Of a stretch of DNA of 64,000 nt, positions 1,936 to 64,000 are shown piece by piece (the first letter of the stretch is position 1; the number at the start of each line of letters is the position of its first letter). Under the pieces are notes generated by a model, which had not been told where the DNA came from, did no database searches, and worked only from the letters and a program-made list of their open reading frames with translations. The stretch spans positions 93,598,925 to 93,662,924 of the forward strand of contig OY743168.1 of the NCBI GenBank assembly GCA_963555705.1. Reading direction: 5' to 3'. The translations under genes were made by a program, and so were the position numbers. This DNA is from Ligustrum vulgare. Taxonomy: Eukaryota > Streptophyta > Magnoliopsida > Lamiales > Oleaceae.

Positions 1936-1992
1936 TAAAATCTTGAATGGCTGGCTGGTGGGTTAATCGAGAAACAAATCCTCTACTTACAC

Positions 1993-2000
1993 ATATATAA
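1993..2000 (-). promoter_or_regulatory. TATA-like box of the GDSL gene
   Basis: On the minus strand the sequence reads TTATATAT about 60 nt upstream of the ATG at 1935, a normal plant TATA spacing once a short 5' UTR is allowed. Confidence 0.5.
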
Positions 2001-3303
2001 GTGTATAGAATCTGAATTGAAATAATCAAATGAACCAAAAAATAAAAACACACTCTTAGTTGGGAAACCTGTGAAGGCGTAACTAAGTGGAATTGCATAT
2101 TGGGTTTGACCATTTTAAATTTTAAAGGATTTGGAATAGGTGGATTTTCTGGGGTTAGGTCATCAACATTTAGTGTGTATGAGCATGCCTCAACGTGCAT
2201 GGACCAAGATCAATTACTTGTGATTCAAGCAAATTCCACCCCCATTAAAGTCAAAGAGAGAGTATCACCTGTCTTATGAAGTTGAGCCTAAATTAGAAGG
2301 TTCTGGTGAAAACTTAGGTGTGAGTTGATACTTTTTGTGGAAGTTACAACTCTTGGATGTGATGCTCTAACTACACAAGAACTGTAATACAATACACATA
2401 AATTTAGTAATTATTTCGGTGAACAATATAGAATCTCTAAAGTGACGGAATATTGCATCACGTAATATATTCATTTCCATAATTGAGTTGTGGATTTGAG
2501 TTTTTATTCTTTGATTTTACCCCTATTTTATTCGTGTGATGACGGAAATGAGAAGAGAAAGCCGATTTAACAAACTTGAATCAATAAAATAATATTACAA
2601 ATAAATTCAAAAAATATTTACTATTTTTTAATCACATACTTTTAAAAATCACTATTCATTCCAAATAAATCCTTTATAAACAACATCGAATTGGGGCTAT
2701 ATCTATGTATATGTTGTTTGCACAGAATTTTAATTTGTTACTTGTTATGAAAGTTATTGGATGAAATTTTAAGAAACTAAAAGTTTGCATGTTTTATCTA
2801 CTTATTTAAACAAAAATCAGTGAAAAAATATTAAGTTAAACTTCGTTGCCATTTCTAGACATAAAGATGACAAAAAAATTCGATCCGATCCGTGGATTGA
2901 CGAATTGGATTTGGATCAGGGGTGATCCGATCCGAACCGCGATCCGATTTATTTTAAAAAATAAAAAACTTTGTAAAAAATTTAATTATTAAATCTAAAA
3001 TATATAAATTTTTATTGAATATTGCACAAATTTTCTATTTATTTTATATATATATATATATATTGTTTTGTTGTATAAATTAGATATTATAGAAGTTGTT
3101 TTATGAATTATGTATTGACTTGTTTATTATTAACGAAAATAGATGACGAAAATTTCTTAATATTTGATCCCATCTGAACTTGAACCTATCCGAAATTTAT
3201 ACTGTTTGATACGATCTGAGATCCCACGGAAGGGATTTGGATCTGCACCTATCTGCTCCGTTGCCATCACTATTCTAGACAACATTGTTTTCTAAGTAAC
3301 TAA
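2001..3303. other. Intergenic, with a GATCC-rich repeat at about 2875-3270
   Basis: Non-coding, AT-rich. About 2875-3270 is a dispersed-repeat-like block whose two ends are rich in GATCC/GGATC words (CGATCCGATCCG near 2881; GATCTGAGATCC near 3209) around an AT-rich core. It has the same architecture as the CCCAA/CGACC block in the kinase intron at 30478-30960. Nothing else is recognisable. Confidence 0.4.
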
Positions 3304-27146: not shown

Positions 27147-29216
27147 GAACATGCATCTTTTTCGTTTCTTCAAAAAGACAAGTGAACTCTGTGGACATAA
27201 CAAGATCTAGCCTGTCAAAAATTCGAAAAACAAAAATGTTTTTTTAAGCCAATCTTCCTGTGAGAAAATTTCTTGCAACACATCTGCCTGCAGGGTATTT
27301 ATCTGATATGAGCGAGCCTGTGTGTGACACAGTGGAAGGCAAGACTCACCTAGAATATTCTGTCCTTCTCTTTCTAGAAGCATTCTTCTCAGATGAAACA
27401 AGCACAGCAACAACACATGCCTGCACCTGGGACAACGGGGAATTAGCACGGTCTGCACGGAGAAAGTATGTAAGCATACTTCTTATAATTAACTGCCTTC
27501 TCAATAGCTGCAACATGTTGGACAATATCATCTGGTAGGGTAGCATTCCCTTGTTAGCCTGAGACTCTTCGTCTGTTGTGATTTTTGTTTTATTCTTGGT
27601 GCTGCCATCTCTGGGTGATGGTCATGGAGTCAACTTATCGGCCCCTTTTCTACGACGTTGTTTTCCTTCATGAACGACCCTGCACAAAAAGGATAATTCT
27701 CTGTCACATACAATATGGATCCTCACTGACAATTACTGTGAGGAAATTCACATGTAAGAGCATCGTTTATATGATTCTCAAGAAGTTATCTAAAAGTACT
27801 CATAGAGATTGATGAGAAATAATGAAAACCACCAACATGAAGCATTTTAACTATCTGAAAATTCAAAGGGTACTGGCAAATCAACCTCAAGCAACCTGGA
27901 ATTATCAACAAAAAAGTTTTACAGTATCCCTTAAACCCCATTTTCAACATATATTAATTGTATAAGACCGAGTGAGAGAAGAGTATGGTAGTTCTCGGTT
28001 CAAAATAATGTTCAAACTTCAAATTCAATAAATCTTGATCAATGAGGAAATTTTGTGTGATTCTTAGTTGAACTTATGCCATTTAATTTATATCTTTTTG
28101 AGTATCAAACAAATCATTAATTAATTAAATCCATGGGAGAATGCTACATGTTCCAAGTGAAAATCCTGCCAAGCTATTCTAATTAGTGCTTCAAAAATTT
28201 ACATCTATAATCGAAACTCCTAAATTCTCTAGGAGATTTAAGCTCAGATATGAGTTCACTTTTTATCTAATTTAATGACGAATAATTCTAGTGACATTTT
28301 TAATTAACATTTTTAAGTGATAATCAAATTGAAGTCCCGTTAAAAGTCTTATGCTTGCACAATGCCGGGTAAAAAATTAAGGGTAAATGCTAACGGAAAA
28401 AACTTTTCAAATACTCTTCATTAATAACATTAAATCTTCATTACAAGTATTCCTAAAAGATGAAGATTTACAATTGCATTCAAATAAAAAAATAAATCTC
28501 ATCCCGGGCCTTATTTTCTCTTTGGACTTTCGTAATCACCTCGTCCTGTTGTATTCCCTATATTGAAGAACGAATAATACAATTTATAAGTAGTTTTCAT
28601 TTTCAATTATGCACATTTTGATTATACAGTTGACAAACATGCTCGACTGTAAACTCCTCGGGAGCAACGGTGTCGTTGTCAACTTCTCTATCCGACATTT
28701 TCCCCCAACTCTCAATTGACTTAAGGCTAGTGTTTTCTGCGGCCTTATATATGTTTAGGGGTGGGAATATTAAAAATTCAGAAGAATAGGGAGTTAAGAT
28801 GTGAAAATAGATATCTATATGGACCAAGTTAAAATGATTGTAGTACAAGTTAGGTCCAGAGACGGAGCTAGACGGGGCGGGGGTGCCGACTGGCCCCCCA
28901 ACATTTCTGGTCAATTTTTCACATATTTTTAGGTTCCGCCTTGAAACATTTGAATTTTAGAAACCCATTTTTTGTTGCTGAAGAAAACCGTTGGAATATA
29001 CCATAAACGAAACAATACGGCAATTAAAGATATTTTCCTCCCCAACAACATCATTGACCCCGTCTTCCTCCATAAATATTGTTTCTCAAGTCAACCTTGT
29101 CATATTCATCATGTCTTTTTTCTCTATAATTAAGGAGTTCACGCATTTCCAGTTGTTTTCCCTGTTGTAGTATGCAGCATGCTTGAAGCAGTTCAGTTTC
29201 TTTCCGTGTCGCAGCA
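27147..29216. other. Intergenic; flank of copia element and kinase promoter region
   Basis: 27147-27850 is less AT-rich than its surroundings and may be an old gene or element fragment, but no frame is recognisable on either strand. 28283-28330 contains a fragment of the ACATTTTTAA MITE family. 28862-28880 (AGAGACGGAGCTAG) looks like an end of the hAT-like family described elsewhere in the window. The last few hundred bases are presumably the promoter and leader of the receptor kinase. Confidence 0.4.
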
Positions 29217-32200
29217 ATGATTTTTCGCCAAATGATCATTTGCCCAGTTTTTTCAGTTTTGTTTGTTTTATCCAGTGGACAAAGTAAAAACTCGTCTCAA
29301 TGTGATCGATCTTGTGGAGTGGAGAAAAACAGTGTGCCATACCCATTTGGGTTCTCCGATGGGTGCGGGATCAAGTTGAGTTGTACCACTGGAAATATCA
29401 AAATAGGTGATTTTCTAGTCGAGAACGTGACATCAGATAATATCATAATCAATCTTCCGGCGAAATGCAACCGCTCGATTGAAGAACTCTCCAAACTCTT
29501 CGGCCCGAATTACGCCTTGACGTGGCGAAACGGACTTCTGTTGCAGAATTGCAGTTCGCCTGTCGGAGATTGCGTGATTCCCAGCATCGTCGCGAAGTCC
29601 CATTTTTCCGGGTTTGACGGGTGCGATTCCTCGCCGGATAGAATAGATTGTTATTCGGGCACTGGTGGCGGCGCGAATTTTTTAAATTATAGTGAAGTGA
29701 CGGAAAGAGGGAATTGCAGGACTTTGTTTTCGTCAATTGCTGTGGATTTGGATGAAAATGGTAAAAATAGCAGCGGTACAAGTGGAAGCAGCACGATGGA
29801 GTTGAATTTTCAGAAGGTTGAGCTGGGGTGGTGGCTGAATGGGTTCTGTAATGGAAGTAACAGTAGAAGTTGTCATCCAAACGCGAATTGCACAAAGGTT
29901 CCCTATGGAAACAGGCGGGGGTTTCGTTGCAAGTGTAATCCAGGGTATGCCGGCGATGGCTTCGCCGGCAGAGGCGCTAAAGGTTGCAGGAAAGGTTAGT
30001 CCATATCTTTTTGGAATTTAATTTATCTTTGATTCTTTAGCCTCCGTTTGGTAACACTATTTGATTTATAAACTTGTTTATTTATGATTTTGAGGTAAAA
30101 ACTAATTGTTGAAAATTGGAGAGAAAAAATGTGTGTGGTTAAAAAATGATTTGGGAAATTGTGTTGTTTATAAATATGTTTATAAACAAAAAAAAATTAG
30201 TTACCAAACGGATGCTTAGTATATAAGAAATGTGTTACGTGTAAATATTTTGGTGGACGACCTAGTTGCACTTTGCCAGTGGGAAAGGGTTGAGATTGAC
30301 CAATTCGAACACGACACTTACACGCGTCATTTGTTGGAAATTTGGAATGGTTGAACAGATTGGTTTTATGAAAATTTTGGTTTCGTAACAATTTATTGAG
30401 TATTTGTTGAACATTAAAATGCATTTAATTTCTGATTAAATTTTTGAATTATTTACGAGATTGGGATGCCTAGCCTTAGAGGTTGACAAAAACCGATCGA
30501 ATCGTTCGAATCGACCCAACTCGATTGGTTTGGATTGATTTTTCATGAAAATTGGGTTGGGATTAAGTTTTTTTTAAAAAAATTAGTCGGGTTGGGTCGG
30601 GTTGTTGTGGGTTGGATGAATAACCGACCCGACCCGACCCGACCTAATTTTTTTTTTTTTTTTTTATAAATTAATGAAACTTAACTTATTTAAATATAAT
30701 TGTACATATTTTAATTTTATTAGCAAGTATTCAATTTATTGTATTTTGAGTTATTGTAGTGTACATAATTGATTTGAATTAAAGATTGATTTATGAGTTT
30801 TTTTTCCTTTTCAAAATTTTTACTAATTGGGCCAAAGTTCAAACCGACCGACCCGATCGAAATTTGTTGGGTTGTTTTATCAACCCAATCATAGTGGGTT
30901 GAGTTCGAGTTGGGCAAAAAATCGACCCAACCCAACCCAACCCAACCCACATCCACCTCTACCTAGCCTGCTAAACTGCCTTTTTATTTGGTATTTGAAC
31001 ATGGTTAATAAATCTTGAAAGTTTTCACAGAAAAATAGATACCAAAATAGTGATCAAACATAAATATTATAAATATTGCCCCCGGGGCATAGATCATTGG
31101 TTATAAGGTGAGAGTAAGCTGAGTTCGCAGCTGAAGGGTAGGAGTTCGAATCCTACATTTGATAAAGATGAGGTTCCTTGTAAGTGCATTTAAATAACAA
31201 GTTCTCAATACTGCTCCACTGAGACACATTCCTAAATTTACATCATCTAAAAATCTTTAGGACAGGGGTTTCTAAGGTTGAAGTTCAATCAGTTGTGTTG
31301 CTCATTGGTGATTTTACTTGTTGGGTGGGGTGGGGTTGGACTTTAGAATACTTGTTACCAATATTTATGTGCAAAATATGATTTGTTAATGAGGCATTCT
31401 TTCTTAGCATTGCAAATTGCTTAACATCTCAAATGTCAACGCTTCTTGTATTGAAATCCATATTATAGTGACTAATAAGTAATATTAGAGGGAACACATG
31501 CTTATCCGGAAGTTTTAATATAATTCTGGAAGATTTGTATTTATTTAATATATGTAAAAGTCAGAGAAAAGAGAAGACATTTTTTTTTTTAAAAAAAAAA
31601 AAGGGCAAATGCATTCAACCAAGAAAAAAGATTCATTCCCCAATAAATCGACACGGGAAAATGAACCTAGGAATACAATTGTCTCAAACCTAATTACATG
31701 TAGTAAAAAAAAAGCAAACTTAGCTAACTTGTGGGCTACTCTATTCCTCTCTCGAGGGATGAAATAACAAGAACCACAATTACTACTAATCAGAAGAGAA
31801 CGAATATCACAAAATAAGTTAGCGAGAGGATTAAAACTGTCATTCGAAATCAATCCTTTAATAACATTGAGCGCATCACTCTCGACCGCCTCGATCAGGA
31901 ACCGTCTCTCAATAGCAAACTTGATACCTTCTTTGATGGTCATTGCTTCGACGGTCATAGCATCAGCAAAACAGCAAACACGAATTGAGAAGGCTACATG
32001 TACAACTCCATTAATATCTCTGAATCATCCCCCAAGCCCAATGAATCCATCTTCCCTACTGACAGCCGCATCAGTTGAGAGAATAAGTCTCCTGAACTCG
32101 AAGAAGGCCCTTTCCAGATTGCCTTGCAACTCTCCGAATCCTTCCTGGTGTCCAGCTCTTTTTTCTTCACCTCCTTAAACTCCCGGATCAACATATCGAT

Positions 32201-35200
32201 ACCCCAACTAAAGTATTCTGGTGGGAGAGTCTTCCCCCCCATGGATAAGTTCATTTCTGGACCTCCAAAGTGACCAAAGCCCAACACAAATTTTTCTCCA
32301 ACACTGAGACTGGAATTCGGAGATGCATACCTGCCAATGTCTCAGTAAAATCAGCTGCTTGGCCTGCATGAAGGGTGTCTTTCCAGAAATCCCAAACTCC
32401 CAACTGTTTCCAACAGGTTTTCGACCAAGGACACTCATCAAAGACATGGGCTGACGTCTCTTTCCCACTGCATCTCGGGCATTCCAGTTGTGCTTGAATG
32501 TGTCTGTATCTGAGGTTGTCAACGGTTGGAATGGCTTTATTGAAGATTCTCCAAACCAAATGCTTCACTCTTGGTGGAATATCCAAATTCCAAAGTTTTC
32601 CCCACCACAGCCCGAAGTCACTTCCGCTGCACTCTCCAAATTGTACACATTCATTCATCATCAGATTGTAGCCACTTTTCACTGAGAAGCGACCATCTTT
32701 CGAAAAATTCCAAATAATTTTATCCGGTACATTAGTGCCACCTGAGGGGAGTGCAAGAATCCTTGTGGAATCAATGGTCCAAAAGGAATTTTCGATGAGC
32801 TCCGTGTTCCAACCCCCACTGGCTATCTTAAGATCCGCCACCTTCTCGAGTCCATGAATCCGAGGGGTCTGGATTCTAATAGCCAACCCATCCGCCAACC
32901 ATGCATCCTCGAAAATACTCACTGAATTTCCATCTCCAATCCTCCACCGACAACCTTTGTCAATGACCTCCCGCCCCTACAAAAGACTGGACCAAATGTG
33001 GGAACAACCTGGTTTAGGAACAATCTCAAGGATGCTACAATTTGGAAAGTATTTGTTTTTAAGAACCTTACTAACCAATGAATCAGGGAATTGAAGGATT
33101 CGCCAAACCTGTTTCGCCAACAAACATTTATTAAAAATAGTAATATCACGGAATCTCATCCCGCCATTATTCTTGTTGAAACACATGGTGCTCCATTTAA
33201 CCCAGTGAAGCTTCTTGGCATTCGGGTTTCCCCCCCACCAAAATTTGGAAAAGATTTCCCGAATATCATTACGGAGGCCGATTGGAAGCTTGAAGACGCT
33301 CATGATGTAGGTGGGGATGGCTTGGAGGACAGCTTTGATCATGATTTCTCTCCCTGCATTCGAGAAGAGATTATGTTGCCAACCCTGCACCTTCTTCCAA
33401 ATTTTGTCCTTGATAGCTCCGAAAGTTTTCCTCTTGTTTCTGCCAACAACAGAAGGAAGACCAAGATAAACATCATGCTGCCTGATAGTTGGGAGGCCAA
33501 GAATGTTACCAATAGAGCTCCGTCGATCCGGGGGTACGTTTGGGCTGAAGGAGATGCTAGTTTTCAGCATATTAACTTTTTGACCAGATGACGCACCATA
33601 TTGGTTAATGAGATTTAAGATGCATTTTGAATCCTCAGTCTCGGCTTTGGAGAAGAGAATGGAGTCATCAACAAAGAAAAGATGACTGACTTGCGGGCCA
33701 CCTCATTTACACCTCATCCCCAGTAGATCCCCTCTGGAGACCGCATCCTGTAAGCTAGAGGAGAACGCTTCTACGCACAAAAGAAACAGGTATGGTGAAA
33801 TGGGGCATCCCTACCTGAGACCACGTGAGGGGATGACTTTACCTCGAATTTGGCCATTGATATTGAAGACAATCTCCGAAGTGGAGATGCAGTCCAAAAT
33901 GCAGGAGATCCAGGGTGCTGGGAATCCCATTTTAGTCATGACAACCTCGATAAACCTCCATTCGACACGATCATATGCCTTACTCATGTCAAGCTTAAGG
34001 GCCATGTGTCCTTTGTTTCGATTACAAAAAGACGTCATATTCTAGTCTTGATTTAATGTTGACTCATGTGAGCATAAGATCGAAAAAAATGACTGTTTAT
34101 GAACTCGGGAACTTATCATCGGAACTTATGAGGTTAGCAGGTCAGATTTTTGGTGTATTATTTCATTTGAAGGTAGAATTAACTTTAGAGATTTTATTTG
34201 CGAAAATTAATCATCCATGCACTGTAATTCGATTTTGAGTACTTTATAACATATATATGCATCCTGCTGATTTCTTGTTTTCTGTGTTGATGCCATTTAT
34301 CAGTTTCTGATTGCAATGCTTCAAAGTTCGTGTTGGGTAAATGTGGCCTAACTAGATTAGGCATTCTCATTGCAGGTGCTTCTTAACCCTTAACTTTTAG
34401 TTGTGCAATCTTGATTGTATCTTCTGGATACTCATCATCTTCATCTCCTATACTATAGTTTTAGAAATCATTTTTTATCTCGCACTTCCCCCAACATGTT
34501 TATAAAAGAATCTTTTACCTCAAAAGAATTTTTTTGTTTTTTTTGTTTATAAACATGTTTATAAACAATACAATTTCTCAAACCACTTTTTAATCACACA
34601 CATTTTTCTCTAAAATTTTCAACCCTTACTTTTTACCTAAAATTCATAAATAAACAAATTTATAAATCAAACAGTGTTACCGGAGGCTAGTTACATGCAA
34701 ATAACATTGAATTAAGTTCACTGTGTGCTAAATCATGCTTTAAAAACTTTTACTTAGCCTACGTTTGGTAACTGTACTTTTTTTGTTTATAAACCAGTTT
34801 ATAAGTTATATAATTTTTCAAGCTACTTTTTAAAAACACACATTTTCTCTCTTCACTTTTCAACCACACATTTTACCTCAAAAATATAAATAAACCAATA
34901 GATTCAAACATGCTTAATATTGTCTATTCTTTTTCTATTTGAAGGAATAGTTGCTGGAGTTTCACTTGTGAGTATTCTGGCTCTCGTCTGCCATTGCATT
35001 AAGAGACACTCTAGATCTTTGAAGAGTAAATTGAGTGCAAAGCGTCTGCTTTGTGAAGCTACAGGTAGCACCAGTGTCCCATTCTATCCTTATAAAGAAA
35101 TCGAGAGAGCCACAAATAGCTTTTGTGAAAAACAGAGGTTGGGAACAGGTGCCTATGGCACAGTTTATGCAGGAAAGCTCCACAATAACAAGTGGGTTGC

Positions 35201-36230
35201 AATTAAGAAAATAAGACATCGAGATCGCGACAGCATCGAACAAGTAATGAACGAAATCAAGCTTCTATCCTCTGTGAGTCATCCGAATTTAGTTCGCCTT
35301 TTAGGTTGTTGCATCGAGAATGATGAACAAATACTTGTTTACGAGTATATGCCAAATGGTACTCTATCTCAACATCTGCAAAGAGAAAGAGGTTCTATTC
35401 TACCATGGACAATACGTCTGACTATTGCCACTGAAACAGCTCATGCAATCTCTCATCTTCACTCAGCTACGAATCCTCCAATTTACCACAGAGACATCAA
35501 ATCGAGCAACATACTATTAGATTATAATTTCAATTCCAAAGTAGCAGACTTTGGTCTATCGAGATTTGGCATGACAGATGATTCCCATGTTTCCACAGCA
35601 CCTCAAGGGACTCCTGGCTATGTAGATCCTCAATACCATCAAAACTTCCACCTTTCAGATAAAAGTGATGTTTATAGTTTCGGGGTGGTTCTTCTAGAAA
35701 TCGTCACAGCAATGAAAGTAGTTGATTTTTCCCGATCTCATAGTGAGATTAATTTGGCTGCACTTGCAATTGATAAAATTGGGAAAGGTCGAGTTGATGA
35801 GATAATAGATCCATTTCTTGAGCCGAATAGGGATGCTTGGACTCTGTCTTCTGTACACAAAGTGGCCGAGCTGGCTTTCAGATGTCTTGCCTTTGATAGG
35901 GACGTGAGACCTTCAATGATGGAGGTGGCAGATGAACTAGAACAGATCAGGCTTAGTGGTTGGGCATCATTGGAAGAGAATATATGTATGGGATCTTTTT
36001 GTTCTTCACGTTCTTCACCATACCTTGGAAGTGAAAAGTCACTATATTCTATATTGAATAAAAAGTCAGGCGTGGGAAGTAGGAGATTGTTCGTTTCACA
36101 GAGGGCTGGGGATGGCCTGCCTACAATGGAGGAGACGAAGGATAGTTCACCCGTTTCTGTGCAGGACCCTTGGTTAAATGAAGAGAGCTTTCCATCAACG
36201 AGCAGCTTATTAGGAAATGTAGTTCAGTGA
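29217..36230 (+). CDS. WAKL14: Wall-associated receptor kinase-like 14 (WAKL14-type)
   Basis: Plasma-membrane receptor Ser/Thr kinase, 711 aa, close to Arabidopsis WAKL14. Exons 29217-29994, 34304-34375 and 34945-36230; phases join exactly (AAA-G/TT, GCA-G/GA). Residues 1-21 are a signal peptide. Then a GUB_WAK_bind region ([23 protein letters not shown]) and a Cys-rich EGF-like region ([20 protein letters not shown]) up to ~258. The membrane span is about 277-301, partly from exon 2. The kinase has the glycine loop [11 protein letters not shown] near 350, Lys in VAIKK near 371, [12 protein letters not shown] with Asp near 467, DFGLS Asp near 485, and [12 protein letters not shown]. All catalytic residues are present, so it should be active. 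WAK-type proteins bind pectin and signal wall state. The introns (4.3 kb and 0.57 kb) consist largely of transposon remnants. Confidence 0.93.
30040..30215. repeat. PIF/Harbinger-like MITE in kinase intron 1
   Basis: GCCTCCGTTTGGTAAC at the left, TTACCAAACGGATGC at the right, with TTA immediately outside both ends. Same family as 34757-34913 and the split element at 41755/47258. Confidence 0.8.
30478..30960. repeat. CGACCC/CCCAA-rich dispersed repeat in intron 1
   Basis: Two blocks of short GC-rich repeats (GACCCGACCCGACCCGACC near 30627; CCCAACCCAACCCAACCC near 30930) bracket an AT-rich core. The ends are roughly complementary (TTGGGTTGGG near 30553 to CCCAACCC). Non-coding. Confidence 0.55.
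31081..31260 (+). mobile_element. tRNA-derived SINE-like element in intron 1
   Basis: A tRNA-like head with AGATCATTGGTTATAAGG (box A-like) and box B AGGAGTTCGAATCCTAC at 31139-31155, followed by a non-tRNA body. It is not a working tRNA, because the arms do not pair fully and no acceptor stem closes it. Boundaries approximate. Confidence 0.55.
31580..34040 (-). mobile_element. 5'-truncated L1-type LINE, antisense in kinase intron 1
   Basis: Read on the minus strand: reverse transcriptase with [14 protein letters not shown] (33811-34038) and an FVDDS active-site box near 33670. Then RT C-terminal/connection ([20 protein letters not shown], 32977-33570), zf-RVT ([14 protein letters not shown]...[20 protein letters not shown], 32251-32922) and an RNase H-like domain ([16 protein letters not shown], 31545-31958). 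The poly(A) tail appears as a T run at about 31581-31590 on the plus strand. Several frameshifts separate the domains. The endonuclease and ORF1 are missing, so it is a dead 5'-truncated copy. Confidence 0.92.
34497..34687. repeat. MITE fragment in kinase intron 2
   Basis: AT-rich MITE-family sequence ending GTGTTACCGGAGGC, an inverted copy of the family terminus; the left end is not clear. Confidence 0.5.
34757..34913. repeat. PIF/Harbinger-like MITE in kinase intron 2
   Basis: Starts GCCTACGTTTGGTAACTG and ends TTCAAACATGC, with TTA on both sides (34754-34756 and 34914-34916). It ends about 30 bp before the exon 3 acceptor. Confidence 0.7.
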
Positions 36231-49803: not shown

Positions 49804-50614
49804 TTGCGAGGTTGACAAAGATATTGCATCAAATTTATGATATTTTAGGTTTTCAATATTTATACAACGTAATTATTTTCTGATTGAAATTATAGTTTAA
49901 TATTGATCATCTCAATTTTTAGTTAATTAGTAAATTGGAAGACAATTTATATATTACTGTAAAAAAATATCATAAAATCTGAATTAAAATATAGCAAAGA
50001 ATATCTTGGTATGGTTAATTACTTTTTGAAATTTTAAAATTAACAGTTAGGGCAAAAACCATTAATAATTATATCATTTCAAACAATATAGATAAATTTG
50101 TTAACCGTTAATGTTAAAAAATGTGATATGAGATTTTTTGGAATAAAAAATTAATTAAGAATTAAATGTAATTGTCATTGAAATAATTTTAATAAATAAT
50201 GCAACATAGGAAAGAACTTTAATATGTATATGTAATAAATAACTTAAAAATAGGATTTAGTTATAAAAATTTCAATACAACGTGATTTATAAAAATACGA
50301 ATGTGTATAAATTTTAGATATAATTTTAATTGAGAATTTGACATTGGATCTGTATGACTAAACAAAATATTTATCCACAAAATTAAGACCAATAAAATAT
50401 CACAATTATTATAAGAAATTAATTACGTATTAAATGTAATTATCTATAAAAATATTTAATAATCTAATAATACGCTATAAAAAAGAGCTCCAATATTTAG
50501 ATGTACTAAATACCTAAAAATAAGATTATTTATAAAAAAGAAAATTATATGTATGATGTGATTTATAATTTAGTACTCCCTTCGTCCCATAAAGATAGTC
50601 ATCTACTCATTTTC
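49201..50614. other. AT-rich DNA with (TAA)n and a Stowaway-like end
   Basis: (TAA)n microsatellite at about 49719-49803; the Leu-rich antisense frame over it is an artefact. 50569-50614 is the terminus of a Stowaway-like MITE (GTACTCCCTTCGTCCCATAA) that is cut by the LTR array starting at 50615. No genes. Confidence 0.6.
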
Positions 50615-52536
50615 TGTAGCGACCAAGAATTTTTACGCGATTAATAATTATTTTAATAGAAAATCGTGTCGCTACTATTTCACCCATTTTTATTAAGTTA
50701 ACGCCACGACGTATTCGTATAGCCAAGTCAAGAAATAATCGAGATCGTTCGATTTTAAATTAAATTCCGAATTTCTAAAAATATCTCCATTCTCTTGATT
50801 TAAAGTATATTAAGTCCAAGTACTTAATTCAATGTTATCCCAATATTTATTTATACAAAAATTATTTTTATTATTGAAATTAAGAAAATATATGCAAGCA
50901 TGAGAGGTTCCATTATATATAATAATTATGAGAATCTTAATTTAATAAATATGGAAAAGTATATGAATGAATTATATACTCCATTATATGTAATCATGAA
51001 GAGCATAATATTTGTATAAATATGGAAAAGTATATGAATGAATTATATACTCCATTATATGTAATCATGAAGAGCATAATATTTGTATAAATATGGAAAA
51101 GTATATGAATGAATTATAGACTCCATTATATGTAATCATGAAGAGCATAATATTTGTATAAATATGGAAAAGTATATGAATGGTTGATAAGATTCCATTA
51201 TATGTAATCATGAAGAGCATAATATTTGTATAAATATGGAAAAGTATATGAATGGTTGATAAGACTCCATTATATGTAATCATGAAGAGCATAATATTTG
51301 TATAAATATGGAAAAGTATATGAATGGTTGATAAGACTCCATTATATGTAATCATGAAGAGCATAATATTTGTATAAATATTGAAAAGTATATGAATGGT
51401 GCTTTACTTTAAGAAAAGGATGTGTTAAAATTAATAGAATTGAATGATTATGTTTACAATATGCCAACTTTATACATCTATTTAAACCCATCTCTTTTAC
51501 ACACAACTCTACACATATACACTTATTTCCAATCTCTTGACAAAATCCACAAGTAAGAGAAATTCAAGGTGGTCAAGAAAGTTTTGGTCCATTTACTACT
51601 ACAGTTCATTTTAATCTTTTAAAAGGTAAGTATATCTTATGTTTTTATGAAAAGTAAGTATGTTTTTATGAAAGGTAAATACACCTTATGTTTTTATGAA
51701 AAGTAAGTATGTTTTTATGAAAAGTAAGTATATCTTATGTTTTTATGAAAAGTAAGTATGTTTTTATGAAAGGTAAATACACCTTATGTTTTTATGAAAA
51801 GTAAGTATGTTTTTATGACAAGTAAGTATATCTTATGTTTTTATGAAAAGTAAGTATGTTTTTATGAAAGGTAAATACACCTTATGTTTTTATGAAAAGT
51901 AAGTATGTTTTTATGACAAGTAAGTATATCTTATATTTTTATGAAAAGTAAGTATGTTTTTATGAAAGGTAAATACACCTTATGTTTTTATGAAAAGTAA
52001 GTATATCTTATGTTTTTATGAAAATGTTTGGATCATTGCTATGAAATCAATCTCACAAGATTGTTATGGGTTCCATATGATATGTTTATGATTATGCTAA
52101 GGGGACCGGAGTTTAGTAGCGCTACACATAAGAATTCTTGCCATTTAAGTTCGGTAAAATTCTTGTGTCTCCCTATGTTTATGAGTATTTCGATCCTATC
52201 CTATGTTATGATGAAAATGATCCATATGCTTTCAAAAGAAAATTTATGCTTGGTATACTTACTGAGATTTTATAAATCTCACTCCACGATATTTACCATT
52301 TTCAGATAATTGAAGGTTCGAGGCGGTCAACATGGAAGTGGCAAAAGTGGTTAAGATTGATGAGATAATTATGTTGAATTTTATGTAAGAAAATTATGTT
52401 CTATTTTTATTCACAAATAAAATTATGGGATTCTAATTATTCTTTTGAATAATTTTACATTTCTATTTAAGTCTCGATAATATGATATGAGTCACTTTTA
52501 GTGGCACTCGAATGGTCGAGAATTCGGGTCGTCACA
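50615..52536 (+). repeat. LTR copy 1 (1922 bp)
   Basis: TG...CA ends. Contains a 71-72 bp tandem array at about 50946-51397 (unit with AAGAGCATAATATTTGTATA) and a second array of GTAAGTATGTTTTTATGAAA-type units at about 51625-52024. Because 72 is a multiple of three, the first array yields a spurious repetitive antisense frame. AT-rich TATA-like sequence near 51480 may be the promoter. Confidence 0.9.
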
Positions 52537-52538
52537 GT

Positions 52539-52551
52539 TGGTATCAGAGAC
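52539..52551 (+). other. Primer binding site, unit 1
   Basis: TGGTATCAGAGAC two bases after the LTR end; repeated at 58876-58888 in unit 2. Complementary in type to initiator tRNA-Met. Confidence 0.85.
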
Positions 52552-53339
52552 AAGAGTTTTAAAAACGATTCTGTAGATTTTTGAAATTTTATTTCTTTAA
52601 AAAAAAAAAAAACACTATTCACGTGAACAGTAAAACGACGTGCTATTCATGATGAACAGTGAACGAAATCACTATTCAATTAAAAAAAAAAATTTGAATT
52701 TTCACATGTCAAGTATGGTTATGATTTTGAAAAGTATGATGAAATTTGATGTGCGAATTTCAAGGACAAAATTCATTTTAAGCAAGGGAGTTTGTAATGT
52801 TCTGAAAATTTTATGGAATATAATTAGTTAGTGATATGATTTTTATATTGATGTCTTTGATAAATTTCTAGAAGTTCGGGGACTAAAGGAAAATAAGATT
52901 TGACGATAAAATTTTATTTGGGTTAATTAGGCCCAATCTTATGTAAAGATGCGAAATGATTAATAATAATTTTTTTTTTAAATATTTTAACTCATCACTC
53001 TACTATGTCACTCTCCACGTATTGACTCCTCGAACCAGGTATGTTATATGCTTTGCAAGTCATTTACGATTTTATTAAGACATGTTAAGTATGAAATATT
53101 CATATGTTATGAATCTTTAAGTGAAATATACATGTTGAGTATGATATGAATTGATAGAAGCCTAAATTTTAATTTATTCATTTTAATGTAGAATCATGAG
53201 ACATAGAGGATATTGATATGAATTTTGGTTCATATTAAGCTTAGTAAGATTGACTCAATTAGAAATTAAGTTGGGTTGTAACTTTGGCCCAAAATATATG
53301 GAATAATATATTAAACAAACAAAATTGATAATGAATTGT

Positions 53340-53617
53340 ACAATAATTTATCCCTTTATCACTACCTTTGTGTAAAAACAAGGGAAAAACTGTGGATGGT
53401 TATTAGTACTTCCTCTTCAAGTTTCAATTTTCGGTTCAATAATTTATCCCTTTATCACTACCTTTGCTTAAAAGCAAGGAAAAACTGTGGATGATTATTG
53501 GTACCACTCTTCAAGTTTCAATTTTCGGTTCAATAATTTATCCCTTTATCACTACCTTTGCTTAAAAGCAAGGAAAAACTGTGGATGATTATTGGTACCA
53601 CTCTTCAAGTTTCAATT
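53340..53617. repeat. Triplicated ~95 bp repeat, unit 1
   Basis: Three tandem copies start CAATAATTTATCCCTTTATC at 53340, 53437 and 53531. Copies 2 and 3 are almost identical and copy 1 is more diverged. Also present in unit 2 at about 59676-59957. Confidence 0.9.
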
Positions 53618-54478
53618 TTGAAAAAAAAAAAAAATATGATTTACGAATGATTTTCAAAATAATCTTAGTCGTCAAGTTTAGAAATGATGAGCCCTAAATG
53701 GACTTTGCATAATTGATTTTAGACATGGCACTAAGTATGAGAAGTCAACAGAAAGGACTAGATAATATTTTCGAATTATTCATCGTTTAGATTAAACGAG
53801 AAATAGAAAGTCAGTTTTATGAAGTTATGATGAGATGTTGAGATTATAAGTGATATGATTTTATTGAGATTTTTATGAGAAGAATTATGAAGTTGGAGAT
53901 TTAAAGTTTAGGCTCTTAATTATTGAGAAATAAGGACTTGATATGGTGATATTAGAAATTATGATTTGAAATTTCTATGTTGAGGAATTATGAATTGATT
54001 TTCTGGAATATTTATGATGATATTGAAGTTTGATGAAATTGTGATCAAATGTACAATTAGTTATTATTGTGAGTTATGAAGTATGCTTACGATTTGGATA
54101 AGTCCAAATTTCAAAGGAAAACTCTGCCTAGAATTTTATCGTTTGGAGTTAAGAGCATAGTATGGTATGCAATCACTAAGAGAATTGAAGTTAGACATAC
54201 AAGTTCATTTACATCACAAACGAGATTTAGTAGATGATAACAGAGATATTATTATTTTCTCATAAGGAGAACACACAAGAGTCACCCTAGAAAGGAAATA
54301 CATGAAAACACGCAAAAGCAAAAGAAAGCAACATGGGAAATTCCTCAAATTGAGAGATGTGTTTCCGGAGTAGCCGTATCCTACCACCTCTGACCTTTTG
54401 AGGAAATAAAGAAACCTTCAAAAATGTGTGTTTCGAGAGTAAGAATACTCCGTACTCTACCCCCACCTATTCTAAGAT

Positions 54479-55132
54479 TCATAAAGTTAAGTTTACATTA
54501 ACCGGACTCCATTTTCGCTTGATTCCCCTTCCTTGCGACCAATCTATCTTAACCCCTGCTGGATCTTGTATTGAGATATATGACTGCAGCTTATCCAGTA
54601 GTTCATCAATAGTAGGAGCAGAAATAAGGAGTCTTCTGAAAAATGGAGAGATGAATCCCTGTTCCACAGCATAATCAAGAAAGGTTAACAAGCCATCAAA
54701 GAAATTGTTAACATTCAGAAGCCCAATAGGCTTAGTATGGAGATCTAGTTGAGCCCACGAGGTAATGTTAAAGATTTCTTCTAAGGTACCAAAACCTCCG
54801 GGCAGGGCTATAAAGGCATCAGAACCATATAGCATACAAGTTATGCGTTCATGGATGGATAAGGTTTGAACTTCATGCCCTCGTGTTTTTCCTGCAACAT
54901 CTACCAAAGGGACAGGTATGACACCGATTACTTTTGATTTCTCTGCAAGAGCAGATTGGGAAACACAACCCATTAGACCACTGCTACCACCCCCATACAC
55001 AAGAGTGATACCTTTTTCCCCCAGTTTCTTTCCAAGATCTACGGCCGCTTCTAGATAACTGAAGCCTTTCCCCACTTTTGATCCACAAAATACACAAATA
55101 GTTTTGATCTGTCGAAGTTTTGGTGCTTCCAT
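54479..55132 (-). CDS. LOG-type cytokinin riboside monophosphate phosphoribohydrolase, unit 1
   Basis: 217 aa, intronless, antisense to the retroelement. LOG enzymes release active cytokinin bases from their riboside 5'-monophosphates in one step. The Rossmann-like fold starts KTICVFCGSKVGK, followed by LVYGGGSSGLMG. The diagnostic LPGGFGTLEEIF (PGGxGTxxE) is intact with its Glu, and the HER segment keeps the Arg. It continues WAQLDLHTKPIGLLNV and FDGLLTFLDYAVEQGFIS, as in plant LOGs. Plant LOG genes usually have several introns; their absence points to capture through cDNA. Unusual: the MH(Q/E)RKAEM segment of plant LOGs reads IHERITCML here, and the C-terminus is basic (GRGIKRKW). The frame is fully open, so a functional protein is possible. 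Confidence 0.92.
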   Translation of the reverse strand: MEAPKLRQIKTICVFCGSKVGKGFSYLEAAVDLGKKLGEKGITLVYGGGSSGLMGCVSQSALAEKSKVIGVIPVPLVDVAGKTRGHEVQTLSIHERITCMLYGSDAFIALPGGFGTLEEIFNITSWAQLDLHTKPIGLLNVNNFFDGLLTFLDYAVEQGFISPFFRRLLISAPTIDELLDKLQSYISIQDPAGVKIDWSQGRGIKRKWSPVNVNLTL

Positions 55133-55206
55133 CTTTGATAGTATAGAAGAGAAAACTTACGAAGAAGATGTGATTTTGGGATGCCTGAACTATGAAATAT
55201 GTTTGG

Positions 55207-55215
55207 CTATTTAAA
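55207..55215 (-). promoter_or_regulatory. TATA-like box upstream of LOG, unit 1
   Basis: TTTAAATAG on the minus strand, 75-83 nt upstream of the LOG ATG; the same at 61543-61551 in unit 2. It suggests transcription of LOG independent of the LTR promoter, which drives the opposite strand. Confidence 0.5.
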
Positions 55216-55577
55216 GCCGGAAAAACTTACTGTTTTTCATTGATTCTGAAAAAGTAAAGATTTACTTTTGACAAAATCGGCCAACTTTTGACTGTTTTAC
55301 CAAAGATATCACCTTTCGGTGATTTATTTCCAGCTTTATCAAACCTCGAGAAAGGAAAATATATTTATTTCCAGCTTTATCAAAACTCGAGAAAGGAAAA
55401 TATATTTTATTTCCAAAACGCGTGAAAGAAAACAGCAAAATATTTTAAATGTGTATCAAGAGATTTACCTTATATCATTGATGAACTGCCAGAAGCCTCA
55501 TTTTGTAAAACAGACTGGCAAACAGGATCTTTTGCTATTATATTTTGGAGACTATAACGATTTTTGTCCCCGTTAAA

Positions 55578-56021
55578 CTAAGCGTATAAGGAGAAAAGTT
55601 CACGTTGCACATAACCACTTGGGTGCGTCTCAAGAGTCAGTCGAATATCATCCAAAGACTCCTTACTCAGTCCACCCTTTATGAATTTGATTTTATCATC
55701 CCGATTAGTAGAAGAATATCCTACTGTTTTGCAACGAGTATCACAGTTCCAACGAGCACATTTGTAGCAACCATTCAGCCTTTTTGCTCTTCGTTTCTTT
55801 GCGATTGTGCTTTTGCCTAAACCAGGCATGTGCTTTGGAAATGTCATAGGTAATTCACCAGATAGTCGAACCTTTGCTTCGATCAACCAGCGAACATCTT
55901 CTGAAACACCATGAGCCATCAGCAACCTCAATCTTTCGAGTCTTATTCGATAAATTTTCCTCAGATCATTCATTGGAAGACTGGAATAATACTTGCGAAT
56001 GTTTGTAAGAATGATATCCAT
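55578..56021 (-). CDS. Arg/Lys-rich Cys-finger protein, viral nucleic-acid-binding-like, unit 1
   Basis: 147 aa, antisense to the element, 445 bp upstream of LOG on the same strand. The N-terminal half is helical and basic (RLERLRLLMAHGVSEDVRW). The middle has a basic run KKRRAKRLNG followed directly by a Cys finger C-x2-C-x4-C-x3-C (CYKCARWNCDTRC), then a tail. The combination of a basic patch and a four-Cys finger in a small protein resembles, by pattern only, the nucleic-acid-binding proteins of carlaviruses and related plant RNA viruses (Pfam Carla_C4 / Viral_NABP). This is from memory of the family layout, not a search. It could instead be an unrelated zinc-finger protein. Open throughout in this unit. 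Confidence 0.5.
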   Translation of the reverse strand: MDIILTNIRKYYSSLPMNDLRKIYRIRLERLRLLMAHGVSEDVRWLIEAKVRLSGELPMTFPKHMPGLGKSTIAKKRRAKRLNGCYKCARWNCDTRCKTVGYSSTNRDDKIKFIKGGLSKESLDDIRLTLETHPSGYVQRELFSLYA

Positions 56022-56907
56022 GTTTTGATGGATCTAACCTCTTCCCAGCATGAACTATTTAAAAGCATTAAGGATCGGAGGAAATCCGCGTGATATTGAT
56101 TCCAGCAAGAAAGCGCGGAATAGAATAATGGAAAAGAGGGAACAAGAGTTATGCGCCGTTTACTTTCTTGATAAAAGGAAGATTTGATGATGACGGGATT
56201 TGAGATATGGAATATTTTCTTGGATTTTGGGTACTGATATTTTGATATAATAATCAAGGTATAGAAATAATACGGGGATACGTGAAAGTGAAATAAGGAC
56301 TGTATTGAATCAGGATTAATAAGTTTGTGCAAGTGAAAGGAATACCTTACGGGAAATGTTATGATATTTGAGTTAAGAATTTTAATTATTTGGGAGATAT
56401 TTGTTTATTGAATTTTGCAGAAATTTTGGGTTACAAATATTGGAAAGATAAACTGATGATTATGTTGATATGTGAATAACATGTTTGGGTATATTACATA
56501 GAGAATATTCAGGTAATCGTTTTAATTATTTTGGGATATTTGGTGATAAGAAGAAATGACAAATTATTATGGTATGATATGTTAGTAAAGATTTATTGAA
56601 ATTTTAGAGATATTAATACGAATATTTGAGGTTACATGATACGATGATAAGTGACAGGTTACATGAGTACTACAAGATATGATGAAATATCACATACGAT
56701 TGGGAATTTTCATTTTGATTCAGAAGAATTTATGAGTAGACATATGTCTATTATTGATAGAAAAGTTCATGTCTTAAGAAAACAAATTGATGCATTTAGT
56801 CAAAGTCCAGTGGATTAAATATGGTTGGGTTAAATATGGTAGCGATGATGCTACATAAGAAGAAGAAGAAGAGATTCTGATTAAGTGTTCAGAAATCATA
56901 AGATCAA

Positions 56908-56951
56908 GTAAGTTTAATTTCGAGGACGAAATTATTTTAAGGGGGTAAGTT
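56908..56951 (+). other. Polypurine tract region before LTR 2
   Basis: TTCGAGGACGAAATTATTTT then AAGGGGGTAAGTT immediately upstream of the LTR start at 56952, typical of plant gypsy elements; repeated at about 63244-63287 in unit 2. Confidence 0.75.
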
Positions 56952-58873
56952 TGTAGCGACCAAGAATTTTTACGCGATTAATAATTATTTTAATAGAAAA
57001 TCGTGTCGCTACTATTTCACCCATTTTTATTAAGTTAACGCCACGACGTATTCGTATAGCCAAGTCAAGAAATAATCGAGATCGTTCGATTTTAAATTAA
57101 ATTCCGAATTTCTAAAAATATCTCCATTCTCTTGATTTAAAGTATATTAAGTCCAAGTACTTAATTCAATGTTATCCCAATATTTATTTATACAAAAATT
57201 ATTTTTATTATTGAAATTAAGAAAATATATGCAAGCATGAGAGGTTCCATTATATATAATAATTATGAGAATCTTAATTTAATAAATATGGAAAAGTATA
57301 TGAATGAATTATATACTCCATTATATGTAATCATGAAGAGCATAATATTTGTATAAATATGGAAAAGTATATGAATGAATTATATACTCCATTATATGTA
57401 ATCATGAAGAGCATAATATTTGTATAAATATGGAAAAGTATATGAATGAATTATAGACTCCATTATATGTAATCATGAAGAGCATAATATTTGTATAAAT
57501 ATGGAAAAGTATATGAATGGTTGATAAGATTCCATTATATGTAATCATGAAGAGCATAATATTTGTATAAATATGGAAAAGTATATGAATGGTTGATAAG
57601 ACTCCATTATATGTAATCATGAAGAGCATAATATTTGTATAAATATGGAAAAGTATATGAATGGTTGATAAGACTCCATTATATGTAATCATGAAGAGCA
57701 TAATATTTGTATAAATATTGAAAAGTATATGAATGGTGCTTTACTTTAAGAAAAGGATGTGTTAAAATTAATAGAATTGAATGATTATGTTTACAATATG
57801 CCAACTTTATACATCTATTTAAACCCATCTCTTTTACACACAACTCTACACATATACACTTATTTCCAATCTCTTGACAAAATCCACAAGTAAGAGAAAT
57901 TCAAGGTGGTCAAGAAAGTTTTGGTCCATTTACTACTACAGTTCATTTTAATCTTTTAAAAGGTAAGTATATCTTATGTTTTTATGAAAAGTAAGTATGT
58001 TTTTATGAAAGGTAAATACACCTTATGTTTTTATGAAAAGTAAGTATGTTTTTATGAAAAGTAAGTATATCTTATGTTTTTATGAAAAGTAAGTATGTTT
58101 TTATGAAAGGTAAATACACCTTATGTTTTTATGAAAAGTAAGTATGTTTTTATGACAAGTAAGTATATCTTATGTTTTTATGAAAAGTAAGTATGTTTTT
58201 ATGAAAGGTAAATACACCTTATGTTTTTATGAAAAGTAAGTATGTTTTTATGACAAGTAAGTATATCTTATATTTTTATGAAAAGTAAGTATGTTTTTAT
58301 GAAAGGTAAATACACCTTATGTTTTTATGAAAAGTAAGTATATCTTATGTTTTTATGAAAATGTTTGGATCATTGCTATGAAATCAATCTCACAAGATTG
58401 TTATGGGTTCCATATGATATGTTTATGATTATGCTAAGGGGACCGGAGTTTAGTAGCGCTACACATAAGAATTCTTGCCATTTAAGTTCGGTAAAATTCT
58501 TGTGTCTCCCTATGTTTATGAGTATTTCGATCCTATCCTATGTTATGATGAAAATGATCCATATGCTTTCAAAAGAAAATTTATGCTTGGTATACTTACT
58601 GAGATTTTATAAATCTCACTCCACGATATTTACCATTTTCAGATAATTGAAGGTTCGAGGCGGTCAACATGGAAGTGGCAAAAGTGGTTAAGATTGATGA
58701 GATAATTATGTTGAATTTTATGTAAGAAAATTATGTTCTATTTTTATTCACAAATAAAATTATGGGATTCTAATTATTCTTTTGAATAATTTTACATTTC
58801 TATTTAAGTCTCGATAATATGATATGAGTCACTTTTAGTGGCACTCGAATGGTCGAGAATTCGGGTCGTCACA
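56952..58873 (+). repeat. LTR copy 2 (1922 bp), shared by both units
   Basis: Same sequence and length as LTR copy 1, including the 71-72 bp array (about 57283-57734) and the GTAAGTATG array (about 57962-58361). It serves as 3' LTR of unit 1 and 5' LTR of unit 2. Confidence 0.92.
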
Positions 58874-60814: not shown

Positions 60815-61468
60815 TCATAAAGTTAAGTTTACATTAACCGGACTCCATTTTCGCTTGATTCCCCTTCCTTGCGACCAATCTATCTTAACCCCTGCTGGAT
60901 CTTGTATTGAGATATATGACTGCAGCTTATCCAGTAGTTCATCAATAGTAGGAGCAGAAATAAGGAGTCTTCTGAAAAATGGAGAGATGAATCCCTGTTC
61001 CACAGCATAATCAAGAAAGGTTAACAAGCCATCAAAGAAATTGTTAACATTCAGAAGCCCAATAGGCTTAGTATGGAGATCTAGTTGAGCCCACGAGGTA
61101 ATGTTAAAGATTTCTTCTAAGGTACCAAAACCTCCGGGCAGGGCTATAAAGGCATCAGAACCATATAGCATACAAGTTATGCGTTCATGGATGGATAAGG
61201 TTTGAACTTCATGCCCTCGTGTTTTTCCTGCAACATCTACCAAAGGGACAGGTATGACACCGATTACTTTTGATTTCTCTGCAAGAGCAGATTGGGAAAC
61301 ACAACCCATTAGACCACTGCTACCACCCCCATACACAAGAGTGATACCTTTTTCCCCCAGTTTCTTTCCAAGATCTACGGCCGCTTCTAGATAACTGAAG
61401 CCTTTCCCCACTTTTGATCCACAAAATACACAAATAGTTTTGATCTGTCGAAGTTTTGGTGCTTCCAT
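60815..61468 (-). CDS. LOG-type cytokinin-activating enzyme, unit 2
   Basis: Predicted protein identical to the LOG copy at 54479-55132 (217 aa), again intronless and antisense, with the same upstream TATA-like box at 61543-61551. All motifs described for copy 1 are present. The lack of any amino-acid difference shows the duplication is very recent or the copies are being homogenised. Confidence 0.92.
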   Translation of the reverse strand: MEAPKLRQIKTICVFCGSKVGKGFSYLEAAVDLGKKLGEKGITLVYGGGSSGLMGCVSQSALAEKSKVIGVIPVPLVDVAGKTRGHEVQTLSIHERITCMLYGSDAFIALPGGFGTLEEIFNITSWAQLDLHTKPIGLLNVNNFFDGLLTFLDYAVEQGFISPFFRRLLISAPTIDELLDKLQSYISIQDPAGVKIDWSQGRGIKRKWSPVNVNLTL

Positions 61469-61913: not shown

Positions 61914-62357
61914 CTAAGCGTATAAGGAGAAAAGTTCACGTTGCACATAACCACTTGGGTGCGTCTCAAGAGTCAGTCGAATATCATCCAAAGACTCCTT
62001 ACTCAGTCCACCCTTTATGAATTTGATTTTATCATCCCGATTAGTAGAAGAATATCCTACTGTTTTGCAACGAGTATCACAGTTCCAACGAGCACATTTG
62101 TATCAACCATTCAGCCTTTTTGCTCTTCGTTTCTTTGCGAAGGTGCTTTTGCCTAAACCAGGCATGTGCTTTGGAAATGTCATAGGTAATTCACCAGATA
62201 GTCGAACCTTTGCTTCGATCAACCAGCGAACATCTTCTGAAACACCATGAGCCATCAGCAACCTCAATCTTTCGAGTCTTATTCGATAAATTTTCCTCAG
62301 ATCATTCATTGGAAGACTGGAATAATACTTGCGAATGTTTGTAAGAATGATATCCAT
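61914..62357 (-). pseudogene. Cys-finger protein, unit 2, with premature stop
   Basis: Second copy of the protein at 55578-56021. A single base change turns the first Cys codon of the finger (TGC) into TGA at 62103-62105, so translation would stop after 84 residues and lose the whole finger. A nearby two-base change also replaces Ile with Phe before the basic run. The rest of the frame downstream is otherwise like unit 1. Confidence 0.85.
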
Positions 62358-63287: not shown

Positions 63288-64000
63288 TGTAGCGACCAAG
63301 AATTTTTACGCGATTAATAATTATTTTAATAGAAAATCGTGTCGCTACTATTTCACCCATTTTTATTAAGTTAACGCCACGACGTATTCGTATAGCCAAG
63401 TCAAGAAATAATCGAGATCGTTCGATTTTAAATTAAATTCCGAATTTCTAAAAATATCTCCATTCTCTTGATTTAAAGTATATTAAGTCCAAGTACTTAA
63501 TTCAATGTTATCCCAATATTTATTTATACAAAAATTATTTTTATTATTGAAATTAAGAAAATATATGCAAGCATGAGAGGTTCCATTATATATAATAATT
63601 ATGAGAATCTTAATTTAATAAATATGGAAAAGTATATGAATGAATTATATACTCCATTATATGTAATCATGAAGAGCATAATATTTGTATAAATATGGAA
63701 AAGTATATGAATGAATTATATACTCCATTATATGTAATCATGAAGAGCATAATATTTGTATAAATATGGAAAAGTATATGAATGAATTATAGACTCCATT
63801 ATATGTAATCATGAAGAGCATAATATTTGTATAAATATGGAAAAGTATATGAATGGTTGATAAGATTCCATTATATGTAATCATGAAGAGCATAATATTT
63901 GTATAAATATGGAAAAGTATATGAATGGTTGATAAGACTCCATTATATGTAATCATGAAGAGCATAATATTTGTATAAATATGGAAAAGTATATGAATGG
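63288..64000 (+). repeat. LTR copy 3, truncated by window end
   Basis: Identical start (TGTAGCGACCAAG) and the beginning of the 71-72 bp array from about 63619. Whether the array ends here or continues cannot be seen. Confidence 0.9.

Follow-up and report, generated by a model that had tools for sequence, protein, structure and literature searches.

A stretch of 64,000 nucleotides of the Ligustrum vulgare genome (hereafter the window) closes with a young tandem of long terminal repeat (LTR) elements, inside which a LOG-like gene lies on the strand opposite to that of the element, and the question raised by this locus is why a retrotransposon should carry such a gene and what the gene does for it. 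The initial annotation, made from the sequence alone, described LTR ends, a primer binding site (PBS), a polypurine tract (PPT), the lack of gag and pol, and an open antisense LOG frame of 217 aa with the PGGxGTxxE motif, and proposed that a host LOG mRNA had been captured and amplified as cargo, spreading a cytokinin-activating enzyme. The structural features were all confirmed in the window, and LOG is amplified as retroelement cargo together with its element, but it does not travel alone; it is the second gene of a pair, and the other antisense gene beside it, overlooked in that annotation, encodes a zinc-finger protein resembling viral nucleic-acid-binding proteins (NABP). We think it rather probable that NABP and LOG form a selected antisense accessory module, passed from an Athila-like element and aiding the expression or transposition of its present carrier; on our best reading the module comprises a silencing-suppressor-like protein and a LOG-fold nucleotide hydrolase, both activities being predicted.

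The element, the first unit of the tandem, spans positions 50615–58873, and positions 52537–56951, to which the cargo was initially assigned, are its internal region. The array extends beyond the window (assembly G000, C1:93649539–93671011), with three internal regions and four LTRs; it is flanked by TTTTC on both sides, and each of the three units retains an intact LOG frame. The PBS-like sequence of the window element, TGGTATCAGAG, is one that we take to be of the initiator-tRNA-Met type, and it is not the TGGCGCC type of the Athila lineage. With two LTRs, a PBS, a PPT, a target-site duplication, and an internal region of 4,237–4,751 bp (n = 14; above 4 kb, with no gag/pol coding), the carrier is a non-autonomous LTR retrotransposon of the large retrotransposon derivative (LARD) type. 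No sense ATG-started frame of at least 120 aa, and hence no gag/pol, was found between the LTRs in any of 14 complete copies, and no reverse transcriptase was seen in the window element; the only conserved genes found are the antisense NABP and LOG. LTR-sharing tandem arrays are frequent in this genome: four NABP places lie at C22:1306460–1326780 and five at C23:10311325–10338630, with a spacing of 6.6–6.7 kb, four listed NABP places are in tandem on C13, and eight neighbouring pairs of listed LOG places on C1–C3 are less than 8 kb apart.

Scans of the own genome (1.38 Gb) scored the best candidates only, and all counts are therefore lower bounds. With LOG DNA as the query, the 40 scored candidates were 99–100% identical, four of them over the full 901 query bases and 36 over 873; all 150 places scored with the LOG protein were 99–100% identical and stop-free, as were all 150 scored with NABP. 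LOG places are concentrated on contigs C1–C3 (116 of 150), with copies on contigs up to C23, and the two lists combined give at least 259 distinct places by contig (125 NABP places lie outside C1–C4, where the LOG list has 16). For 13 of 20 NABP places on C1–C3 there is a listed LOG place at −1098/−1099 or +889. The possibility that LOG is a single passenger, present at this locus only, is rejected by the 150 near-identical, open places scored in the genome.

Seventeen loci (L012–L028) were picked by LOG DNA identity, and in the 14 that are complete both frames are open (LOG, 217 aa; NABP, 183–199 aa), the choice of loci biasing the LOG figure and the NABP figure less. Their LTR pairs differ at 28 of 27,342 sites (0.10%), and the sampled copies are therefore young. 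Matching 5-bp flanks are present in 13 of the 14, and the remaining copy abuts a PPT, hence lying within an array. An assembly artefact was considered and rejected, since these 13 copies have their own flanks matching on both sides.

One copy (L026) is inserted inside an older related element, L049, which has diverged LTRs, shares the PBS and PPT motifs, and keeps both genes open; its own two LTRs differ from each other at 25 of 2,631 sites (0.95%). Between the window element and L049 the nonsynonymous and synonymous divergences (dN and dS) are 0.010 and 0.067 for LOG and 0.043 and 0.179 for NABP, with dN/dS of 0.15–0.27 for the two genes and a non-coding divergence of 4–15%. Nonsynonymous changes are fewer than neutral in both LOG (nonsynonymous to synonymous changes, N:S, 5:10; p 0.0005–0.003) and NABP (16:14; p 0.003–0.025), each under two substitution models, and in cassettes picked by NABP, LOG has a lower density of variants than the stretch separating the two genes (19/654 sites vs 24/445; Fisher p 0.04). 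Both frames have been kept under purifying selection relative to the older element. Such selection at the amino-acid level, and the occurrence of the same genes in sense elsewhere, make it very unlikely that the antisense unit acts as an RNA, by forming double-stranded RNA with the genomic RNA of the element or by masking, its coding capacity being incidental, although a role of this kind is discussed for antisense open reading frames (ORFs) of plant LTR elements in sections of PMC7264820.

The sense-oriented counterpart was found in retroelements with Athila-like features. One profile scan of genome contigs with the NABP alignment returned one locus, DAIEQH010000041.1 (L050), in which the end of pol with an integrase (rve, H2C2) is followed by a sense NABP and an Athila-like PPT; from motif and sequence we take L050 to belong to the Athila lineage, and LOG is absent from it. 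The contig is filed as a Nomurabacteria metagenome-assembled genome and resembles plant retrotransposon DNA. Searching the own genome with the L050 NABP placed a distinct class at 70–73% on top (the best nine places), with about 139 further places at 66–68% to the same query that are LARD-type by frame length and may overlap with the 150-place list. In L051, which holds one of the top nine places, the order is a TGGCGCC-type PBS (which we take as the mark of the Athila lineage), a 264-aa frame with no Pfam match above cut-off, a sense NABP, a sense LOG, and an Athila-like PPT. Its NABP and LOG share one reading frame with a single stop between them, both are open, and they have 63% and 51% protein identity, respectively, with those of the window; a 551-bp sequence preceding the PBS is repeated past the PPT with 99.5% identity, as would be expected of LTR parts. 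L051 and the LARD have the same gene order, but with respect to PBS and PPT the two pairs point in opposite directions. Because the pair is found in sense in this Athila-type PBS/PPT stretch of the plant's own genome, the cassette has probably moved between retroelement lineages and been flipped.

The window LOG matches Pfam PF03641 (E 3.5e-33), contains PGGFGTLEE, and most resembles, of the structures solved so far, those of plant LOGs. Residues 12–208 of Arabidopsis LOG3 align to a single continuous frame, so that there are no introns across that region. The intron comparison covers one host LOG of the same genome, the one match to a strict pattern (with the canonical MHQRKAEM), which falls into seven exon-like pieces; the intronless host parent that would make retro-capture dispensable was thus not seen for this gene. 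An intronless LOG beside a split host gene, purifying selection, and the retention of catalytic Arg96 and Glu119, PGGxGTxxE, and Trp would suit an active cytokinin-activating enzyme captured from host mRNA and increasing the dose of cytokinin, in meristems for instance, from which the element would benefit. The adenine/prenyl pocket argues otherwise, with Ile97 and Asn122 at the positions of Lys100 and Glu125 of CgLOG. The residue survey comprised 116 rows (the window protein and 115 of 120 hits, those of 190–235 aa being kept), all best hits of the window protein, so that the sample leans to its kin: catalytic Arg is conserved in 109 rows, catalytic Glu in 114, Thr in 116, and Trp in 115, whereas the Lys100 position has Met, Ile, or Leu in 110, Thr in 1, and Lys in 5 (absent from 111 of 116), and the Glu125 position has Glu in four (absent from 112 of 116). 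In CgLOG, according to the parts of PMC4979012 that assign residue roles, alanine changes of AMP-binding and catalytic residues nearly abolish activity, S19A excepted, and the role of Glu125 was inferred from structure.

A LOG tree, initially suggested as a route to the host donor, placed 112 of 119 rows in one clade (support 99/98), outside of which lie Arabidopsis LOG3 and LOG8, a bacterial LOG, and four rows with both Lys and Glu. The clade holds proteins of several eudicot orders, with named members in Reevesia, Diplodiscus, Populus, Primulina, Parasponia, and Diospyros; because it is common to these orders and the same pair stands in sense in an Athila-like stretch, a recent capture of host mRNA by this element is unnecessary. 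The catalytic and PGGxGTxxE residues behind the cytokinin-activating label stand, but with the pocket residues differing across most of the clade the label itself appears doubtful, and we judge the account of a captured, cytokinin-raising enzyme unlikely. Reevesia pubescens proteins make up 38 of the 120 listed LOG hits (P0034 to P0113), from many chromosomes and in one clade, and are perhaps another large amplification.

The window NABP scores 33.5 bits against Viral_NABP (PF05515; curated cut-off 23), and its match to Carla_C4 (PF01623) sits exactly at cut-off. Among 32 family members scanned at E 0.01, including that of the window, 31 match PF05515 and 28 match PF01623; named relatives are proteins of Populus, Orobanche, Striga, Xanthoceras, and Acer. 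The similarity is confined to some 65 residues in the zinc-finger region (profile positions 135–202 of 227) and does not extend over the whole viral NABP or cysteine-rich protein, and for this reason common descent with the viral proteins is only probable, its direction being either way. TRP28, the domain of a Retand-type antisense ORF, has no match in NABP or the LOG protein at E 10. The Pfam matches would also be expected of an endogenous viral element integrated directly into the retrotransposon; scans of viral contigs (IMG/VR, which may lack flexiviruses) gave no relative for either frame or for the NABP alignment, the cassette has no further viral gene that we could see beside it, LOG has its closest structures in plants, and the sense copies sit in retroelement settings, so that we reject direct viral integration as extremely improbable. 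A similar peptide (FKPFLDVKPEEDVS-like) continues past the NABP stop at L051:2618–2670(-) and L050:2348–2400, running into LOG in L051, and P0190 carries a FKPFLDVKPEEDVS-like peptide without an intervening stop, which suggests stop read-through or a lost fusion.

Both antisense genes are preceded by putative promoters, for which position and conservation are the basis: in the window element as well as in L049, TTTAAATA occurs at −83 relative to LOG and at −42/−41 relative to NABP. The two exact CTTTAAATAG in the window are one site in two tandem units, so that their number gives no support. A GAGTACGGAGT...ACTCTCGA motif is located after LOG in the LARD and after the PPT in L051; of 500 shuffles, 1 attained the local score (34) of this similarity, the region having been picked after it was seen. 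Sites of the form GAGTANGGAGT...ACTCTNGA[GA]AC are found in the window at 55627–55668(-), within NABP coding sequence, and at 54430–54457(-), after LOG, at L049:5412 and 6572, and on the reverse strand of L051 at 3636, 4895, and 4944, including after the PPT, and are absent from L050; they are a possible cis-acting RNA signal.

In the mechanism that we favour, the NABP–LOG pair would have passed as one block from an Athila-like element into the LARD, in reversed orientation, and each gene would be transcribed from its own putative promoter (TATA-like box at −42 for NABP and −83 for LOG), independently of the LTR. By analogy with its flexivirus relatives, NABP may dampen RNA silencing or act as a transcription factor, and LOG would hydrolyse a nucleotide 5'-monophosphate, with base specificity probably altered. 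Together they would favour the expression and transposition of the element, the gag and pol proteins being supplied by another one.

Several observations weigh against this reading. The dN/dS values come from one element pair whose divergence is uneven along its length (2–15%), so that recombination may have shaped it, and within the burst N:S is below neutral but not significantly so (LOG 11:8, p 0.06–0.16; NABP 5:4, p 0.12–0.23). Of 20 cassettes chosen for NABP identity, 19 contain a LOG, and four of the 19 are broken (three by an early stop, one by a one-base gap); NABP is shortened in all three array units by a stop at codon 148, with units 2 and 3 also having one at codon 85. The viral-profile match of NABP is short, and its AlphaFold2 model is poor (mean pLDDT 58). 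L051 is truncated, its 551-bp repeat neither starting with TG nor ending with CA; no pol lies between its PBS and NABP and no reverse transcriptase was seen there, making it non-autonomous itself, its LOG (1837–2670(-), open for 278 codons) has Ser and Gln at the two catalytic positions, and one internal stop interrupts NABP at three of the nine nearest L051-like places. No autonomous partner of the LARD was identified, no search having been dedicated to finding one. Plant LOGs that share critical residues can also differ in activity, as reported in part of PMC11593424, and residues alone thus leave the LOG substrate unsettled.

The broken and shortened copies, the non-significant N:S within the burst, and the near-identity of the LTR pairs would fit neutral passengers whose frames are open merely because the burst is recent. 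We find this quite improbable given the low dN/dS against the older L049, where both frames are open, the presence of the pair with open frames at 51% and 63% protein identity in the Athila-like stretch, and the single LOG clade across eudicots. Beyond the selected accessory module, a bolder version can be offered tentatively, in which NABP–LOG would be a portable counter-defence module that crosses unrelated LTR lineages, flips, and drives amplification; NABP would block silencing and have been exchanged between flexiviruses and retroelements, and LOG, no longer acting on cytokinin but still catalytic and with a remodelled base pocket, would destroy another nucleotide, such as an immune signalling nucleotide.

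Features of the window element and its tandem neighbours (window coordinates)
Feature	Position	Strand	Remarks
5-bp flank TTTTC	50610-50614	.	recurs past the final LTR of the array, beyond the window end
First LTR, TGTAGCGACC...GTCGTCACA	50615-52536	+	two tandem-repeat arrays inside
PBS-like GTTGGTATCAGAG	52537-52549	+	directly 3' of first LTR
94-bp tandem repeat	53341-53619	+	internal region
Motif GAGTACGGAGT...ACTCTCGAAAC after LOG	54430-54457	-	also after the PPT of L051; variant in NABP coding region
LOG-like frame, 217 aa, intronless	54479-55132	-	Pfam PF03641
TATA-like CTTTAAATAG	55207-55216	-	83 bases before LOG; conserved in L049
41-bp tandem repeat	55322-55415	-	between NABP and LOG
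Viral_NABP/Carla_C4-like frame	55578-56021	-	stop at codon 148; at least 183 aa in other copies
TATA-like TTTAAATA	56056-56063	-	42 bases before NABP; −41 in L049
Polypurine tract GAGGACGAAATTATTTTAAGGGGG and bases up to LTR	56921-56951 (about)	+	purine run with GGGGG
Second LTR	56952-58873	+	zero differences from first LTR
LOG of second tandem unit	60815-61468	-	intact
NABP of second tandem unit	61914-62357	-	stops at codons 85 and 148
Third LTR	63288-64000	+	cut by window end

Elsewhere in the window, a receptor-kinase-like gene lies at 29187–36230 (extracellular part 29187–29999, kinase part 34902–36230), and between its two parts is a LINE-like reverse-strand frame (32251–33702), both identities being read from the frames. 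The window also encodes a WD40 protein with 92% identity to one of Olea europaea, and the presence of element copies on contigs up to C23 agrees with the chromosome number of Oleaceae.

Comparison with known systems separates what is new here from what is not. Two Athila-like elements with similarity to LOGL4 are reportedly mentioned in the abstract of the 2011 survey of Steinbauerova et al. The LOG cargo is real but largely known in kind, as LOG in plant Ty3/gypsy elements is already published: PMC9289625, which cites that survey, reports the YgdH/LOG domain in consensus sequences of Gypsy elements from two Citrus species and, once a filter is switched off, from P. trichocarpa. Those elements share the LOG domain with the element described here, whose carrier is in contrast a LARD with another PBS, and whose LOG is antisense, paired with NABP, and present at 150 or more near-identical places; the section of PMC9289625 on LOG names no NABP or Carla_C4 domain. 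In the open-access literature searched, PMC13317346 included, we found no report of NABP in retroelements, which is not proof of absence; among plus-strand viruses, a betaflexivirus replicase-like sequence is reported in the relevant part of PMC3136472. Within the reach of these searches, four things are new: the NABP partner, the selected antisense pair in a large LARD burst, the sense counterpart, and the changed LOG pocket.

NABP shares a region matching PF05515 and PF01623 with the nucleic-acid-binding and cysteine-rich proteins of carla-, allexi-, and mandariviruses, whose functions we take from sections of PMC12172455 and PMC12115993; unlike them it is retrotransposon-encoded, matches over about 65 residues, and has no viral neighbours that we could see. 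VANC is a protein of Arabidopsis VANDAL elements and differs from NABP. It provides transposon-encoded counter-silencing (PMC10398659 and PMC5735166, in part), a role that we propose here too, by inference. Maize Bs1, as cited in PMC7264820, is likewise an LTR element with a transduced host coding sequence; according to the same source, however, such transduced genes generally keep the sense orientation and number one or a few copies, unlike the LARD cassette.

Plant LTR elements commonly carry accessory genes in antisense, whose origin and function are called unknown in the relevant section of PMC7264820. Here both antisense genes are recognizable, selection on them is measurable, and a sense counterpart occurs in the same genome; because the predicted silencing suppression and nucleotide hydrolysis can both be assayed directly, the pair offers a tractable entry to the role of accessory genes in plant retrotransposons. 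Its nearest parallels in layout are Grande, RIRE2, and Retand, which have conserved antisense genes near the 3' LTR, gene23 of Grande being transcribed from its own promoter (PMC7264820 and PMC11963269, sections on antisense ORFs). The antisense ORFs of those elements have other domains or no known ones (TRP28 in Retand) and an origin described in these sections as unknown, whereas both genes of the L. vulgare LARD are recognizable and have a counterpart in sense.

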